Positions 36,660-44,190 of a stretch of 64,000 nt of DNA are shown here, piece by piece. The translations under genes were made by a program, and so were the position numbers. Source of the stretch: Aureliella helgolandensis (GTDB lineage Bacteria; Planctomycetota; Planctomycetia; Pirellulales; Pirellulaceae). Position 1 is the stretch's first letter. Each line of letters opens with the position of its first letter. Under the pieces are notes generated by a model. The model was not told the origin of the DNA, searched no databases, and saw only the letters and a list, made by a program, of their open reading frames with translations. The stretch lies in the NCBI RefSeq assembly GCF_007752135.1, contig NZ_CP036298.1, positions 2,976,001 through 3,040,000 on the forward strand, read 5' to 3'.

Positions 36660-37519
36660 CTGCCAAGTGCTCCCAAGCGATCCAAATTAATACCTGAACA
36701 GACTCGATACCGCGGACTGCTACTACTTACAAAGAGTGTTCGTCCCTAGCCCTACTGACTATGTCGCAGCACTGCTGCTACGATACTATCTTGCAGTTCT
36801 GCTCGGCTTGCGTTGGGCAGTCTGAGCACCCTGCTAAAGCAATCTTCGAGGGCGCCTCAATCAGCTATCTTTTCTATTTCAATTTAATAGTCCAGATAAG
36901 TATACGGATCGGCATTTCAAACAGCAACGTCCTGAAAAATCATAGCGGAATTCCAACCCTAGATGCCCTAGAAACTTGTGCGATGCAACGCAAGGTCAAT
37001 CGCGGTGGCTCGTCGAATTGCAGTGCGGCGTGATATCCTCCCGCGAGCTCGATTCACGGTGCAGTGTCCGCCTTAGGGGGTTGCCGTAGGCAGCTTGATC
37101 CGTCTTCCATATTCGCGCCGTATGCGTGGAGTGGAATCTTCGATTTATCAACCATTTCCAAGTTGCTTTTGCTTAAACGGAGTTTATTCGGGAAGGAGTT
37201 TTTGAGCGAGTTGGGGTGGTAGACCTTGACGACTGGGCGCTTTCGAAAAAATACGGAAAATATAGCAACTATGGCTCGCGTAACGTCCACTATCAGCTAA
37301 ACTCTCAGGACAAAGTGCACCCAAACTCGCCAACAGCGGGGGAAATGCACATTGCAATGCTAGCTTCAATAAATGAAGCATGGGACTAACCTCTGTGGTT
37401 AGGTTTCCACAGAGGGCTGGAGCATACGCAACTCAATTTACGTACCTTGTTTACACGGTGTATCAAGGTTTTGCCGGGCTAGCCCGTCGGCCAAGTTGGT
37501 TCCTCGAGAGGAGATCCTC
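36660..37519. other. Long non-coding leader region before the YTV gene
   Basis: About 860 bp without a supported gene; a 90-codon frame at 36761-37033 has no signature. It is more AT-rich than its surroundings in places. Near the YTV gene lie a 9-bp-stem hairpin (37390-37415) and a smaller nested inverted repeat, CCTTG..CAAGG around TACA/TGTA (37445-37468). A Shine-Dalgarno-like GAGAGGAGATCCTC directly precedes the ATG at 37520, unusually good for this window. The length suggests a complex promoter or an RNA leader. Confidence 0.45.
37390..37415 (+). promoter_or_regulatory. Hairpin in the YTV gene leader
   Basis: CCTCTGTGG at 37390-37398 pairs exactly with CCACAGAGG at 37407-37415 across an 8-nt loop, about 105 bp before the start codon. 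There is no T-tract, so it is more likely an operator or an mRNA-stabilising stem than a terminator. Confidence 0.5.
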
Positions 37520-39310
37520 ATGAAGTTTCGCCCATTTTTCGCTTTGATGGGACTAGCCGCTATGTGCGTTGCCAGTTCCCTTCAAGCACAATGCAACAGC
37601 TGTGGTGGCTGTAGCTCGTGTGGCACTGTCGCCACTTCCGGTTGTTCGTCCTGCGGTGGCAATGGTGCCGCTGGTATGGCTGGCAACGGATCCGCTTGTG
37701 GATGTGGCGTTAGCTACACCACGAAGACCGTCATGGTTCCTCAGTATGTATCTGAGACCCAAACCGTGACCGTTACCGAAATGAAGCAAGAAACCCGTCA
37801 ACGCACTGTAAACGTTGTCAAGAGTGTGCCAAGCACTGAAACCCGCACACGCACCATCACCAAGATGGTTCCCCGTCAAGAAACCAAGACTCAGGAATAC
37901 ACTGAGATGGTTCCTTCGGTAACTCAAGAAACCTACACCGTTCAAGTACCTGTTACTACGCAAGTGGACCAAGAGTACACCGTTTCCGTTCCTAAGATGG
38001 AAACCATCGAAGTTCCTTATACCGTTTCGGTTCCTTACACTGAAGTGCAACAACAAGAATACACTGTCAATGTTCCGGTTACGGAAATGATTGAGCAGTC
38101 GTACACCGTTTGTGTGCCTTACACCGAAATGATCGAGCAGAGCTACGTTGTCAACGTGCCTTACACCGAAACTGTAACGCGCAACTACAACGTTCAAGTT
38201 CCTCATACGGAAACTGTTGAGCAAAGCTACCAAGTACGTGTTCCTTACCAAGAAACCGTAACCGCGACTCGTAACGTATGCCAACGCATTCCTGTTACGT
38301 CCTACCGCACTGTTTCCCGCGATATGGGCAGCTACCAAACTGAGCAAGTACAAGTTCCTTGTGGCACTAGCCACTCGGCTGGACATGCTCATGGTGGACG
38401 TCGTCTAGGTGGCCGTCTGTGCGGTGGTTGCCGAGCTAGCACTTGTGGTAGCTGTGGCGGATGCAGCAGCTGCGGAAGCTGCAACAGCGGCTGTGACAGC
38501 TGTGGTGGCGGTGCTGCTGGCGGTTGTGCTCCTGCAATGACGACTGTTTGCCGTCGCGTTTGGGTTCCTAATGTCGTTACGGAACAAGTTCCTTACACGT
38601 CCTACACCACCCAAACCGTTCAACAGCCTTACACCTACACGGTCAACAAGTGCCGCGTTGAAACTCGCACTCGTTCGGTTAACGTAACTCGTTACACCAC
38701 CGAAACTCAGTCGCGTGAAGTTGCGGTACAACGTTGCCGTCAAGAAACGAAAGTACGTCAAGTACCAGTAACTCGCATGCGTCAAGAAACTCGTACTCGT
38801 CAAGTACCTGTTACCAAGTGCGTACAAGAAACTCGTACTCGTGACATCACTGTTACCAAGTGCCGTCAAGAAGAGCGAACTCGTCAACAACAAGTTTGCA
38901 AGATGGTTCAAGAAACTCGCACTCGCAAAGTGAATCAAACCACTTGCACCAGCGAAGAGCGTACCCGCGACGTAACGACCATGGTTCCAACGACCAAGAC
39001 TCGTGAGTACACCGTCACGGTTTGCGAGCCAGTTTCGGAAGAGCAAGAATACCAAGTTACGGTGTACAACCAAGTAACCGAAGAGAAGACCGAAGACTAC
39101 ACCGTTTGCGTACCTGTTCAGGTCCAAAAGGAAGTCCAAGTACAGAAGTGCGTGATGGTTGCTCAAGAAGTAACCGTTCCTGTCAGCAACGGCTGTGGCG
39201 GCGCTGTTAGCGCTTGCGGCGGAAGTGCTGGTTGTGCAAGTGCTGGTTGTGCAAGTGCTGGTTGTGGCGGCTGCGGAGCAGCTGTCTCCAGCGGTTGTGG
39301 CTGCCGTTAG
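37520..39310 (+). CDS. Cysteine-rich YTV-repeat cell-surface protein
   Basis: Exported repetitive protein (596 residues) matching the planctomycete YTV repeat family (PF07639). A signal peptide (about 1-23, ending 'SSLQA') precedes a Cys/Gly-rich segment, then a first array of 'EYTVSVP' and 'YTEMIEQSYTVCVP' repeats (about 75-280), a central Cys/Gly-rich hinge (about 285-340), a second array of 'CRQETRTRQVPVT'-type Arg/Thr repeats (about 370-500), further YTV units, and a Cys/Gly/Ala tail ending 'SSGCGCR'. Such proteins are believed to belong to the proteinaceous planctomycete cell wall, with disulphide cross-links. Codons are biased to T/A-ending forms (GTT, CCT, CGT, CAA), unlike its neighbours, which suggests very high expression. 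Monocistronic, with strong ribosome site and terminator. Confidence 0.9.
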   Translation: MKFRPFFALMGLAAMCVASSLQAQCNSCGGCSSCGTVATSGCSSCGGNGAAGMAGNGSACGCGVSYTTKTVMVPQYVSETQTVTVTEMKQETRQRTVNVVKSVPSTETRTRTITKMVPRQETKTQEYTEMVPSVTQETYTVQVPVTTQVDQEYTVSVPKMETIEVPYTVSVPYTEVQQQEYTVNVPVTEMIEQSYTVCVPYTEMIEQSYVVNVPYTETVTRNYNVQVPHTETVEQSYQVRVPYQETVTATRNVCQRIPVTSYRTVSRDMGSYQTEQVQVPCGTSHSAGHAHGGRRLGGRLCGGCRASTCGSCGGCSSCGSCNSGCDSCGGGAAGGCAPAMTTVCRRVWVPNVVTEQVPYTSYTTQTVQQPYTYTVNKCRVETRTRSVNVTRYTTETQSREVAVQRCRQETKVRQVPVTRMRQETRTRQVPVTKCVQETRTRDITVTKCRQEERTRQQQVCKMVQETRTRKVNQTTCTSEERTRDVTTMVPTTKTREYTVTVCEPVSEEQEYQVTVYNQVTEEKTEDYTVCVPVQVQKEVQVQKCVMVAQEVTVPVSNGCGGAVSACGGSAGCASAGCASAGCGGCGAAVSSGCGCR

Positions 39311-39830: not shown

Positions 39831-40268
39831 CTACCGCCCCATCAATTTCGCCCACCAGGATTTTTCTTCGCGCAAGGGGACGGGTTTGAAGGGCTCCATC
39901 GGCTGAGTTGCGTAAACGCTCCCTTGAGGCCGCGTGGTCGTTGGTCGCTTTACGCGCGTCTGCTGATCTTCGGCACTGGAAAAATCGACTTCCAGCAACA
40001 GAGCCCCAATCTGAATGACTTGGCCGGGCATCAGAATTGCCTGCTGGACACGACTGTCGTTGACATAAGTCCCGTTGGTTGATCCAAGGTCTTTGATGAG
40101 CAGCGCTCCCTCGGCATTTAATGCCAACTGGCAATGCTTGCGACTGATGGAATCGTGGTCAATGCATAGTGCAATGCCTGGTTCGCGACCAACCACCGCC
40201 GGTGGGGTGAAGAACCAACTGCAGGCTGAAAGACCATCGACGTGGTTCTTGAGCACTAACTTATACAT
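39831..40268 (-). CDS. FHA domain protein
   Basis: Phosphothreonine-reading protein of 145 residues. The forkhead-associated domain (about 22-98) has its hallmark residues: 'VVGREPG' (Gly-Arg), 'SISRKHCQL' (Ser and His) and 'DLGSTNGTYVND' (Asn-Gly). The last 45 residues are a flexible Thr/Arg/Pro-rich tail ending in Trp-Trp ('EEKSWWAKLMGR'), which may itself be a phosphorylation or docking site. It is divergent from the ECF sigma/kinase operon 300 bp away, so its ligand could be a target of that kinase (inference). Cytoplasmic. Confidence 0.92.
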   Translation of the reverse strand: MYKLVLKNHVDGLSACSWFFTPPAVVGREPGIALCIDHDSISRKHCQLALNAEGALLIKDLGSTNGTYVNDSRVQQAILMPGQVIQIGALLLEVDFSSAEDQQTRVKRPTTTRPQGSVYATQPMEPFKPVPLREEKSWWAKLMGR

Positions 40269-40568
40269 GCTGCAACTCGCCGTTTACGATTAGTGAGATG
40301 AGATAAGAATAAGAAAAGGAGCCACCCTAGAAAAGGCAGGGCGGCGTACCTGTTGGGCGGACGCGAGCTATCGAGTGGCTTGCGCGTGCTACGGCAGGTA
40401 GGCCACGCCTGAGGGGTGGATGCCTATTACTGCATTCTAGACAGAGCTCGTGCGCCAAAATGGTTCTTGGCCGGATGTTTTTTTGCAAATTTGCCAAAAT
40501 CTACTGTAAGCAAATCCCTAAACTACGGAGTAACTTACTGTCCACCGTCACCTTCGCGAGGAATTCCC
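40269..40568. promoter_or_regulatory. Divergent region between FHA and ECF sigma genes
   Basis: No gene is seen. It must contain the promoters of both divergent units. The open frame leading into the sigma gene extends back to 40416, but those 51 codons lack family similarity. No clear operator repeat stands out. Confidence 0.4.
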
Positions 40569-41276
40569 ATGGCAGAGTTTCCGGAAACGCGAGTCAGCTT
40601 GATCCTCAGATTGTCGGAACCTACCGACGTTCAGGCCTGGCAAGAGTTCTCTGATATCTACACGCCAGCTCTGCTTGCCATCGCCCACCGCAAGGGACTG
40701 CAGGCTGCGGACGCTGAGGATGTGGCACAAGAGATCTTATTTGGGGTCGCGCGTGCCGTGGAGCGTTTTCGGCCCGATGCGTCGCGGGCCAAATTTCGGA
40801 CTTGGCTGTGCCGCATTGCCCACAACCTGATCGCGGACTTCTGGGCGGGGCGTAGCAAGCGTCCTGTGTCCCAAGCTCTCACCGACAGCTGGCTGGATCA
40901 CTTGGTGTCCGGGGAAGCCAACGCACCTGATGAGTTGATGCTGGGGGATCTGCAAGCGGCCATCTTTCGTGTGGCCGCCAAACGCGTCGCGCGGCGGGTG
41001 GCCAACGACACTTGGCAGGCCTTCGAGCGGACGGCCATCCAACGCCTTGAGCCATCCCAGGTAGGAACGCAACTCGGCATGTCTCTCGGAAGCGTGTATG
41101 TGGCGCGATGCCGTGTTCTGCGACTGCTCCGCGATGAGGTTGAACAGCTTCAAAAAATCTATGCCGACTTCGATACCGCCGAGCAGTGGGGCGAAGCAGC
41201 TGGGGCGGACGTCGGTGAATTCGACGAATTGGGGTTGGGGGAGAGCGCATTTCTAGATCGAGGACCAGAGCAATGA
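40569..41276 (+). CDS. ECF RNA polymerase sigma factor (planctomycete kinase-linked type)
   Basis: Sigma-70 family factor of 235 residues from the ATG at 40569 (MAEFPETRVSLI). Region 2 is 'AEDVAQEILFGVARAVERFRPD' followed by 'FRTWLCRIAHNLIADFWAGR', and region 4 is 'RLEPSQVGTQLGMSLGSVYVARCRVLRLLRDEV' with a recognisable helix-turn-helix. The segment between is longer than in most ECF factors, and an acidic tail of about 35 residues follows region 4; both fit the planctomycete groups linked to kinases. Its stop overlaps the kinase start by 4 bp (ATGA), so the two are made together. It has no separate anti-sigma gene; the kinase carries the zinc motif instead. Confidence 0.9.
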   Translation: MAEFPETRVSLILRLSEPTDVQAWQEFSDIYTPALLAIAHRKGLQAADAEDVAQEILFGVARAVERFRPDASRAKFRTWLCRIAHNLIADFWAGRSKRPVSQALTDSWLDHLVSGEANAPDELMLGDLQAAIFRVAAKRVARRVANDTWQAFERTAIQRLEPSQVGTQLGMSLGSVYVARCRVLRLLRDEVEQLQKIYADFDTAEQWGEAAGADVGEFDELGLGESAFLDRGPEQ

Positions 41277-42883
41277 GTAACGATCATCCACGGCAGTCAC
41301 GCGCCGCGCACTGCCTTAGCCAAGAACAATTGCTCGATGTGTTGCTCCCCCTGGCTCCCTACGACCAACGCGTTGATGCGCACTTGAGTGCCTGCACGGC
41401 CTGTTGTGACAGATTGTCCGAAATCGCGGGAGACCAGGCGTGGTGGTCTGCGGCTGAAACCTACCTGTCCGTTGCCGCAGAACCCGCAGCAGCCCGGGTG
41501 GCCCAGTCGGTGTGCGCTCTGATCTCGGAGCCTGGCAAAAGCGATGAACGCGACCCGCTTGGCCAACACGAGTTGTCGCAATTGAAGAGCCTGCTTGATC
41601 CGCCCAGTCACCCAGAGCTGTTGGGGCGAATTGGTCGCTATGAGTTGGAGCAACTGGTGGGACGAGGGGGGATGGGGCTGGTGTTTCGCGGCCGAGATAC
41701 GGAACTGCATCGGGTGGTGGCGGTGAAGCTGATCGCCAGTCATTTGCGTCCGTTGGGGGCCGCCCGCGAGCGTTTCATTCGCGAAGCGAGAGCGTGCGCG
41801 TCGCTGGCCCATCCGCATATTGTCGCGATTCACGATGTGATTACCGATTCCGCTTTGCCGGCGATTGTCATGCAATACGTCGCCGGTCCGACCTTGGAAG
41901 CTTGGCTGAAAGAACGAGGTTCGCTTTCCTGGCAGCAGGTACTGCAAATCGCGACGCAGCTGACCGATGCGCTTGTTGTCGCTCATCAACACGGATTGGT
42001 GCACCGCGATATAAAACCAGGCAATGTGTTGTTGGAAGCGGATGGTTCTCGAGCCCTGCTCACCGATTTTGGATTGGTACGAGCTCTCGACGAAGCTACG
42101 CTCACCCACACGGGCGCCCTGGCCGGCACTCCCGATTTCATGTCGCCCGAGCAGGCGCGAGGCAAGAGCGTCGATGGGCGAAGTGATCTGTTTTCTCTGG
42201 GAGCCCTGATGTACGTGATGCTAACTGGGCACCCACCTTTTCGCGCTCCCGAGCCGCTGGCCATTCTGCACCGCATCTGCAATGAGCCTCATCGCTCTAT
42301 TGCTCAGTACCGCGATGATGTTCCCGCGGAAGTAGCGAGATTGGTCGATCGACTACTAAACAAAGAACCCAAACGTCGTTTTGCCGGTGCGGAGGAATTG
42401 CGAGAGCGCTTGCTCCAGTTGAGTCGTTCGTCCTTGCATCTCAGTCATCGTCGAAAGCGTCGCCTCCCATGGTTGGTGGGAGCATTGAGTCTCGTTGCTG
42501 TACTTGGATTCGCGAGCTGGAGCACTCTGGCCCGTTGGATTCCGGGCGGAGGTAGCACATCCAGTTGGTACTCCACCGATGCGCCACACAATCCAGCATG
42601 GTTCGGCAACAGCGACCATGAGCAAGGTGCCGACTATGCGGGATCACTGAATGATCTCAATCGAAACGCCACATCAAAAACCAATTTCCAAGTTCTGCAA
42701 GAATTGGACACTTCTATTGCAAAGATCAAGGAGCAGACCAGCCGGCTTGTCCAACGCTACTCGTCAGCTGGGGCTCCGGGAAGTACCAGCGAAAACTGGA
42801 ACGCGGTGCCTAGATTCGAAACCGATATGGCAGCCTTGCAGCAAGCCGTCGGGCGCTTGCGGCTCGAGATGCGTCAGGAGTAG
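41273..42883 (+). CDS. Ser/Thr protein kinase with N-terminal anti-sigma-type zinc motif
   Basis: Hanks-type kinase of 536 residues. Residues 37-44 read H-x3-C-x2-C (His37, Cys41, Cys44), the core of zinc anti-sigma (ZAS) domains. The kinase domain spans about 122-385: glycine loop 'GRGGMGLVFRG', Lys152, 'HRDIKPGN' (Asp246), DFG at 265-267, and 'GTPDFMSPEQARG'. All catalytic residues are present, so it should be active. One membrane helix (about 399-417) follows, and the last ~115 residues would be periplasmic, predicted helical, with no PASTA repeats. Translationally coupled to the ECF factor. A model in which the kinase tethers and releases the sigma factor is inference. Confidence 0.93.
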   Translation: MSNDHPRQSRAAHCLSQEQLLDVLLPLAPYDQRVDAHLSACTACCDRLSEIAGDQAWWSAAETYLSVAAEPAAARVAQSVCALISEPGKSDERDPLGQHELSQLKSLLDPPSHPELLGRIGRYELEQLVGRGGMGLVFRGRDTELHRVVAVKLIASHLRPLGAARERFIREARACASLAHPHIVAIHDVITDSALPAIVMQYVAGPTLEAWLKERGSLSWQQVLQIATQLTDALVVAHQHGLVHRDIKPGNVLLEADGSRALLTDFGLVRALDEATLTHTGALAGTPDFMSPEQARGKSVDGRSDLFSLGALMYVMLTGHPPFRAPEPLAILHRICNEPHRSIAQYRDDVPAEVARLVDRLLNKEPKRRFAGAEELRERLLQLSRSSLHLSHRRKRRLPWLVGALSLVAVLGFASWSTLARWIPGGGSTSSWYSTDAPHNPAWFGNSDHEQGADYAGSLNDLNRNATSKTNFQVLQELDTSIAKIKEQTSRLVQRYSSAGAPGSTSENWNAVPRFETDMAALQQAVGRLRLEMRQE

Positions 42884-42951
42884 CAGCACTAGTTTCCCTC
42901 TTTCTCATTCAACAACTCTTCTCAACCTCATTTAGCTTCTGGAGACTCGCG

Positions 42952-44190
42952 ATGTCCAATCTATTCCGTCTACGATCGATCTTGTCCCGCCAATCACTCT
43001 GCTTGAAATCAATTTGTTTGGCAACGTGCATGAGTTTTCCCTCAGCCGCAGTGCCGTTCAGCCACGGGCAGGACGCATCTGCCGGGGTCGAAGAAGATTC
43101 GAATTCAGGCGAGAGCGCCCAGCAAGCCGCCGACGATTTACCCGCCGGCGAGGCGATGGAAGAAGGAGGCGGTTTTGGAGGAGGTGGATACGGAGGAGGT
43201 GGATACGGAGGTGAAGGTGGATATGGCGATGGAGGCTATGGAGGGATGGAGCTCGGCGGCGGTTATGGCGCTATGGAGGGAGGAGAAGGGTATGGATCTT
43301 ATGGCGGTGACATGATGGGGGGAGCCCCATCCTTTCCGCTCAATATCTTATTGGTGACTAAGGCAGAGACCGACGGCAAGACTGGTACACAGCTCAAAGC
43401 ACTTAAGGCAATGAAAGTGAATCGGTACCGATACCAAATAGGTAGTTTCGCACCTCAAGACATGACTCCTCAAATGGCCGGAATGATGGGGGGGGGCTAT
43501 GGCATGGAAGGTGGTTACGGCGGTGGTGGTTACGGAGGGATGATGGGCGCTGAGGGAGGAATGGGTGCCGGCATGACAAATGAAAGTGCAACTCCGCCGC
43601 CCGAAAGTATTCAGATCTACGTATTCTCATTCGATCGACAATCAGCAAAGGGGCGAACTCAAGTCGAGGTATGCGTTAAGTTGCCTCGTAGGAACAGATC
43701 GCGTCGTGGTGCTGGGATGGGAATGATGAGCGGATTCGAGATAACAAGCGAAGTAGCGCTCGGCGGTGGCGAAGAAGTCGAGATGGGTTCCGCGATGGAA
43801 TCCAGAGCTCAGTACGTGCCGCTCGAATTGGCAGAAAAACTGACTAACGCTGGTGGCAAGCCCCTGACGCTGCAACCCTCCTCCGAAGAACTAAACCTCG
43901 TCGCCGATATGCTTCGGCAAAGGACCTGGAGAGCTGAAGTGCTCGAACAAATCCAGTCCAAAATATTGACCGGCCCAAAATTGGAAGGCGCCGAGGAATC
44001 GCTCAAAGAGATCATGTCTGAGGAGTACGATACGCAACTCGCTAGGCAAGAATTTGAGATCACTGCGATTGAGCAGTCTGCACAAGCCTTGCGGCATGAA
44101 CTCAAGCGACGCCGTGACGCCAAGCAACGCGTGATCGATGTCCAGTGGGGCCGCATCGTGCTCGAGGCCCAAGGCTTGCTGAGCAAGTAG
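42952..44190 (+). CDS. Secreted Gly/Tyr-rich protein of unknown function
   Basis: I do not recognise this 412-residue protein. The N-terminus has an extended signal-like hydrophobic stretch (about 20-35). Residues about 65-125 are almost only Gly, Tyr, Met and Glu ('GGGGYGGGGYGG'), and a second Gly/Tyr/Met patch is near 175-205. Between and after are ordinary mixed sequences, and the final ~100 residues are charged and probably coiled coil. At DNA level the first patch contains 15-bp near-tandem repeats. The gene follows the kinase by 68 bp and is likely in the same operon. It could be a surface or matrix protein, or the sensed target of the kinase's outer domain; both are inference. Confidence 0.7.
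   Translation: MSNLFRLRSILSRQSLCLKSICLATCMSFPSAAVPFSHGQDASAGVEEDSNSGESAQQAADDLPAGEAMEEGGGFGGGGYGGGGYGGEGGYGDGGYGGMELGGGYGAMEGGEGYGSYGGDMMGGAPSFPLNILLVTKAETDGKTGTQLKALKAMKVNRYRYQIGSFAPQDMTPQMAGMMGGGYGMEGGYGGGGYGGMMGAEGGMGAGMTNESATPPPESIQIYVFSFDRQSAKGRTQVEVCVKLPRRNRSRRGAGMGMMSGFEITSEVALGGGEEVEMGSAMESRAQYVPLELAEKLTNAGGKPLTLQPSSEELNLVADMLRQRTWRAEVLEQIQSKILTGPKLEGAEESLKEIMSEEYDTQLARQEFEITAIEQSAQALRHELKRRRDAKQRVIDVQWGRIVLEAQGLLSK

Follow-up and report, generated by a model that had tools for sequence, protein, structure and literature searches.

A planctomycete membrane kinase with a class I anti-sigma-type zinc domain in a putative three-gene ECF sigma cassette

How are the extracytoplasmic function (ECF) sigma factors that planctomycetes encode beside Ser/Thr kinases controlled? 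The question is raised by a locus of Aureliella helgolandensis, for which we analysed 64,000 nucleotides at contig positions 2976001-3040000 of the 8.44 Mb genome (the window, whose numbering is used throughout). Here an ECF sigma factor gene (40569..41276, plus strand) runs into the gene of a transmembrane kinase (41273..42883, plus), a gene for an exported protein follows (42952..44190, plus), and an FHA-domain gene (39831..40268, minus) is the divergent neighbour of the sigma gene. An earlier note on this DNA had read the four genes as a phosphorylation-controlled circuit, and all four were found with the domains claimed for them. Our analysis supports, from homology and architecture, the proposal that an anti-sigma-type zinc domain and a kinase are joined in one single-pass transmembrane protein.

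Planctomycete ECF groups linked to Ser/Thr kinases have been described as ECF59, ECF61, ECF62 and ECF217 (PMC8999054), and the window system resembles them in the placement of the ECF gene directly beside the kinase gene, in its host and in its retained DAED motif. The same source attributes the dependence of EcfP on kinase phosphorylation to its lack of DAED, and states that the mechanism of the kinase-linked groups that keep the motif may differ from that of EcfP and is still to be found.

The zinc domain of the kinase and its linkage to ECF genes

The N-terminal domain comprises kinase residues 1-68 (41273..41476, plus), with Cys14, His37, Cys41 and Cys44 as predicted zinc ligands, a CHCC quartet as in zinc anti-sigma domains. 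The HxxxCxxC motif formed by the last three residues had been recognized in the earlier note, which missed the fourth ligand, Cys14. A Cys or His lies 19-32 residues before the motif His in all 170 motif-bearing related kinases, compared with 54/170 in a control interval, and the spacing is exactly 24 or 25 residues in 138 of the 170. Orthologues keep the zinc residues, a point on which the proposal had been declared open to refutation beforehand. In addition to the class I signature of H-x3-C-x2-C with an upstream His or Cys ligand, the zinc-domain kinases show the class I hallmarks of an operon with the cognate ECF gene and of homology in sequence to class I domains of solved structure. When the family profile of the zinc region was compared with the whole PDB, its matches included DdvA (1.1e-6), ChrR (3.8e-6), RsiW (8e-4) and RslA (0.016; we take entry 3hug to be this protein), with one CHAT-domain protein ranking among these anti-sigma factors. 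The Pfam family zf-HC2 is matched by 23 of 58 relatives of the kinase N-terminus, and scores above its curated cut-off in three sibling kinases of this genome. Class I domains are built as a three-helix bundle with a fourth helix; the AF2 model of the window domain is helical (helices 17-23, 32-40, 42-53 and 55-67), with a predicted local distance difference test score of 89-95 in the core. Taken as a whole, the sequence evidence supports the assignment of the kinase N-terminus as a class I anti-sigma-type zinc domain.

In a census of all 65 placeable kinases of the genome the motif is present in 14, and an ECF gene adjoins 13 of these compared with 5 of the 51 motif-less kinases (Fisher p=7e-9). 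Eleven of the motif kinases come immediately after an ECF gene, two have one in divergent orientation and one has none beside it; with tandem arrangements only, the association gives p=1e-6 (Fisher), and the ECF genes preceding the five motif-less kinases belong to more distant kinds. The census rules out the possibility that the window kinase is one of many unrelated kinases with N-terminal zinc motifs. An independent set consisted of 98 sigma genes of related genomes, chosen by sigma similarity alone, 95 of which precede a kinase; the motif is found in 92 of those 95 kinases, a near-universal linkage to one ECF group, and the remaining three include two that appear frameshifted or fragmentary and one without the motif His. 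Across the phylum the N-terminal profile has matches in 169 of 199 genomes, which is an upper bound because the profile also matches stand-alone zinc anti-sigma genes. The ATGA coupling of the window genes was confirmed as a four-base overlap at 41273-41276, and an overlap of the xTGA type links the sigma gene to the kinase gene in 115 of 182 pairs; no natural sigma-kinase fusion protein was seen among all the loci examined.

Beyond the zinc domain, a linker (41477..41638, plus) ends in a motif that the alignment shows to be strongly conserved, L-x-P-P-S-H-P-E-L/M-L-G-R-x-G-R-Y-E (41570-41638), and that connects the zinc and kinase domains. The latter (41639..42394, plus; Pkinase 4e-48) is of PknB type, with K152, E171, D246, N251 and D265 intact and with the catalytic Lys, Glu, HRD and DFG residues forming invariant alignment columns. 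A single predicted transmembrane helix, residues 397-419 (42461..42529, plus), is helical in the AF2 model and preceded by RRKRR, and a transmembrane segment is found at a comparable position in nearly all sibling kinases. The short extracytoplasmic tail (42530..42880, plus) ends in a predicted coiled coil (AF2 helices 462-498 and 513-535), and similar short coil tails are carried by the kinases that have the third gene.

The sigma factor and its putative promoter

The sigma factor exceeds the cut-offs of PF04542 (Sigma70_r2, E=1e-15) and TIGR02937, ECF relatives in the PDB align with it across residues 21-190, and it has the ECF layout of a small protein with only sigma2 and sigma4. Its DAED motif in sigma2 is intact; at least two acidic residues occupy this motif in 161 of 162 relatives, and a Ser or Thr occurs within it in only 8 of the 162. 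The uncharged, phosphorylatable motif that replaces DAED in EcfP-type (ECF43) factors is absent from the window protein. Retention of DAED implies that binding to core RNA polymerase needs no phosphate, unlike the situation in EcfP. In the same 162 relatives Thr148 and Thr155 are strongly conserved and are candidate phosphosites, and Thr7 (40587-40589), within P-E-T-R-x-S-L, is Thr in 160 and may be either a phosphosite or part of an N-terminal motif of the group.

A putative autoregulatory ECF promoter, TGTAAG-N17-GAGTA (40505..40532, plus), is conserved upstream of the sigma gene in orthologues. TGTAAG is present in 7 of 8 upstream regions and the exact TGTAAG-N17-GAGT in 5 of 8, and 200 shuffles never gave more than two exact copies. 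The exact box with GAGTA occurs once in the genome, before the sigma gene itself, and the conservation of the box ahead of the sigma factor's own gene suggests that it is autoregulated. A wider regulon was considered and rejected, as the genome has this single exact box and the rest of the window has none. Paralogous sigma genes (L097, L108 and L110) have CTGTAAC upstream, suggesting a TGTAA-type -35 element that varies from one anti-sigma-kinase pair to the next. Immediately before the cluster, at 37496-39310, lies a Cys-rich YTV-repeat gene of the planctomycete cell-wall type, as is also the case in genomes G005 and G008; it has its own conserved upstream sequence, containing AGCTAAACTCT. 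This gene was dismissed as a sigma target because its upstream region lacks the TGTAAG-N17-GAG box.

The exported third component

The third gene encodes a protein with a signal-peptide-like N-terminus, previously described as a secreted Gly/Tyr-rich protein of the operon. It is a real, syntenic third component, so that the lack of synteny by which the earlier note would have been refuted does not hold for this gene, but the Gly/Tyr-rich insert (about 43168-43326) is not its conserved part; this is instead a C-terminal helical-hairpin domain of the last 87 residues (43927..44187, plus), which was delimited by alignment and has no relative in Pfam or the PDB. The genome contains four copies of this domain, every one directly downstream of a short anti-sigma-kinase. 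In G005, G011, G012 and G022 an orthologue of the third gene comes directly after the kinase gene, and in G008 (L407) a copy is found just before the sigma gene.

The short kinases carry a tail of 110-170 residues past the kinase domain with a coiled coil at its end; in the long kinases the tail has at least 365 residues and includes AhpC/TSA, DUF1559-like or repeat-like parts. The third gene follows 17 of 20 short kinases versus none of 14 long kinases (p=1e-6), a count in which the third gene was scored for L103 and L006 from the larger loci L394 and L068. Such a complementary distribution suggests, for the exported protein, the role of a separate sensor or partner of the short receptors. 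In two of the long anti-sigma-kinases, those of L395 and L398, the region C-terminal to the transmembrane helix includes a thioredoxin-like domain of AhpC/TSA type. In this genome just one short anti-sigma-kinase lacks a third gene, and a prepilin/DUF1559-like gene comes after it (L391:2703-3728).

Proposed mechanism, alternatives and meaning

We consider it somewhat probable that the locus encodes a three-gene ECF cassette, in which a membrane anti-sigma-kinase holds an autoregulated sigma factor and releases it by phosphorylation upon an envelope signal. One membrane chain would act as both anti-sigma factor and Ser/Thr kinase, its N-terminal zinc domain holding the sigma factor at the inner face of the membrane, mainly through sigma4. 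The short coiled-coil tail and the exported helical-hairpin protein would together sense an envelope signal that activates the kinase. The kinase would then phosphorylate the anti-sigma domain, the linker or the sigma factor, and the sigma factor would be set free to transcribe its own operon from TGTAAG-N17-GAGTA.

Covariation provides supporting, though not decisive, evidence that the zinc domain contacts the sigma factor. In a direct-coupling analysis of 162 sigma-kinase pairs, where partners exchanged among the eight nearest sigma relatives served as the control, the top 100 couplings include 20 sigma-zinc-domain pairs, or 12 with variable loops removed; partner exchange lowers these numbers to 0-3 and 0-1, respectively. 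The density of sigma-zinc-domain couplings is about four times that of sigma-kinase-domain couplings (about three times with variable loops removed). For sigma4.2, 16 of 1674 pairs couple with the zinc domain compared with 12 of 6851 with the kinase domain, a 5.5-fold density (p=1e-5, for a region chosen post hoc); this signal fits the published class I interface, in which helix 1 is paired with sigma4 (PMC7406223).

Several results weigh against the proposed cassette. Overall, covariation exceeds expectation modestly (p=0.006 in the top 100), the sigma-zinc-domain excess is not significant among the top 200 couplings of entropy-matched columns, and none is seen on sigma2, where class I domains also bind; with only sigma4.2 standing out, we rejected covariation as a general proof of contact. 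The N-terminus of the window kinase taken alone falls below recognition by zf-HC2 in Pfam, comparison of its small helical model using Foldseek and VIA-align returned no match and so is uninformative on the fold, and the zinc domain could serve as a recruiter of the sigma factor and not as its inhibitor.

Recruitment of this kind defines the main alternative, in which the zinc domain brings the sigma factor to the kinase for an activating phosphorylation, so that the kinase would play the part that PknT has with EcfP. The general view of ECF-kinase pairs is that phosphorylation activates them (PMC8999054), and the conserved Thr7, Thr148 and Thr155 would provide sites; however, the DAED motif kept in almost all relatives removes the sole known reason for such activation, a restored negative charge, and those class I anti-sigma domains whose function is known are inhibitors. 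We regard this alternative as unlikely. A role of the zinc domain in sensing redox state or metal to control the kinase, with the sigma factor regulated by phosphorylation only, seems highly improbable: the zinc-binding (ZAS) domains of some anti-sigma factors do release zinc under oxidative stress (PMC8999054), but the present domain is nearly confined to kinases adjoining ECF genes, and of all blocks compared, that between it and the kinase domain shows the weakest covariation.

The four-part circuit of the earlier note, in which the FHA protein is the dedicated reader of phosphothreonines on the kinase or the sigma factor, is very unlikely. The FHA gene (FHA 4e-19) is divergent from and adjacent to the sigma gene in the window; the near relative G010 alone has the two orthologues side by side in this way, and in G013 the FHA orthologue lies just beyond a paralogous cluster of sigma, kinase and third gene. 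Set against this, FHA orthologues are absent from the neighbourhoods of the system in G005, G008, G011, G012 and G022, they occur without the system in G002 (on a short contig) and G009, and this genome alone has at least 11 FHA matches. A lack of synteny for this gene, which the note had itself named as grounds for refutation, largely holds, and such inconsistency indicates that the FHA gene is probably not a core component.

The proposed cassette shares features with several known systems. EcfP-PknT of Vibrio parahaemolyticus (ECF43) likewise joins an ECF factor with a neighbouring kinase, but EcfP has no DAED motif and phosphorylation activates it, whereas the window system has an intact DAED motif and a kinase with a zinc domain. 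The class I zinc anti-sigma factors RsrA, ChrR, RsiW, RslA and DdvA have the same C/H...H-x3-C-x2-C pattern, share an operon with the cognate ECF gene and are often membrane-bound; in place of their sensor or protease-controlled tail, the window protein has an active-looking PknB-type kinase. Phosphorylation of separate zinc anti-sigma factors by PknB similarly represents kinase-driven ECF release (PMC8999054), with two proteins doing what a single chain would do here. The accounts of ECF59, ECF61, ECF62 and ECF217 in that source make no mention of anti-sigma domains fused to the kinase or of exported partners, the features that set the window system apart. Novelty is limited because ECF-kinase linkage was already known; our literature search, which did not cover the main classification papers, found no description of either the fusion or the third gene, and they may have been noticed before.

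More tentatively, the cassette may exemplify a planctomycete class of ECF control that combines anti-sigma factor, kinase and transmembrane receptor in one protein that frees its own sigma factor by phosphorylating in cis, a hitherto undescribed exported coiled-coil family being the sensor subunit of the short receptors and the sensor being fused in the long ones. The module recurs many times in related genomes. The exported helical-hairpin family, found in this genome only beside anti-sigma-kinases, is an unannotated candidate sensor. Many kinases would be reclassified as likely anti-sigma factors, with a predicted target promoter, and, as kinase-linked ECF factors are numerous in planctomycetes, a conserved anti-sigma domain within the kinase chain would offer a direct and testable answer to the question of their mechanism.
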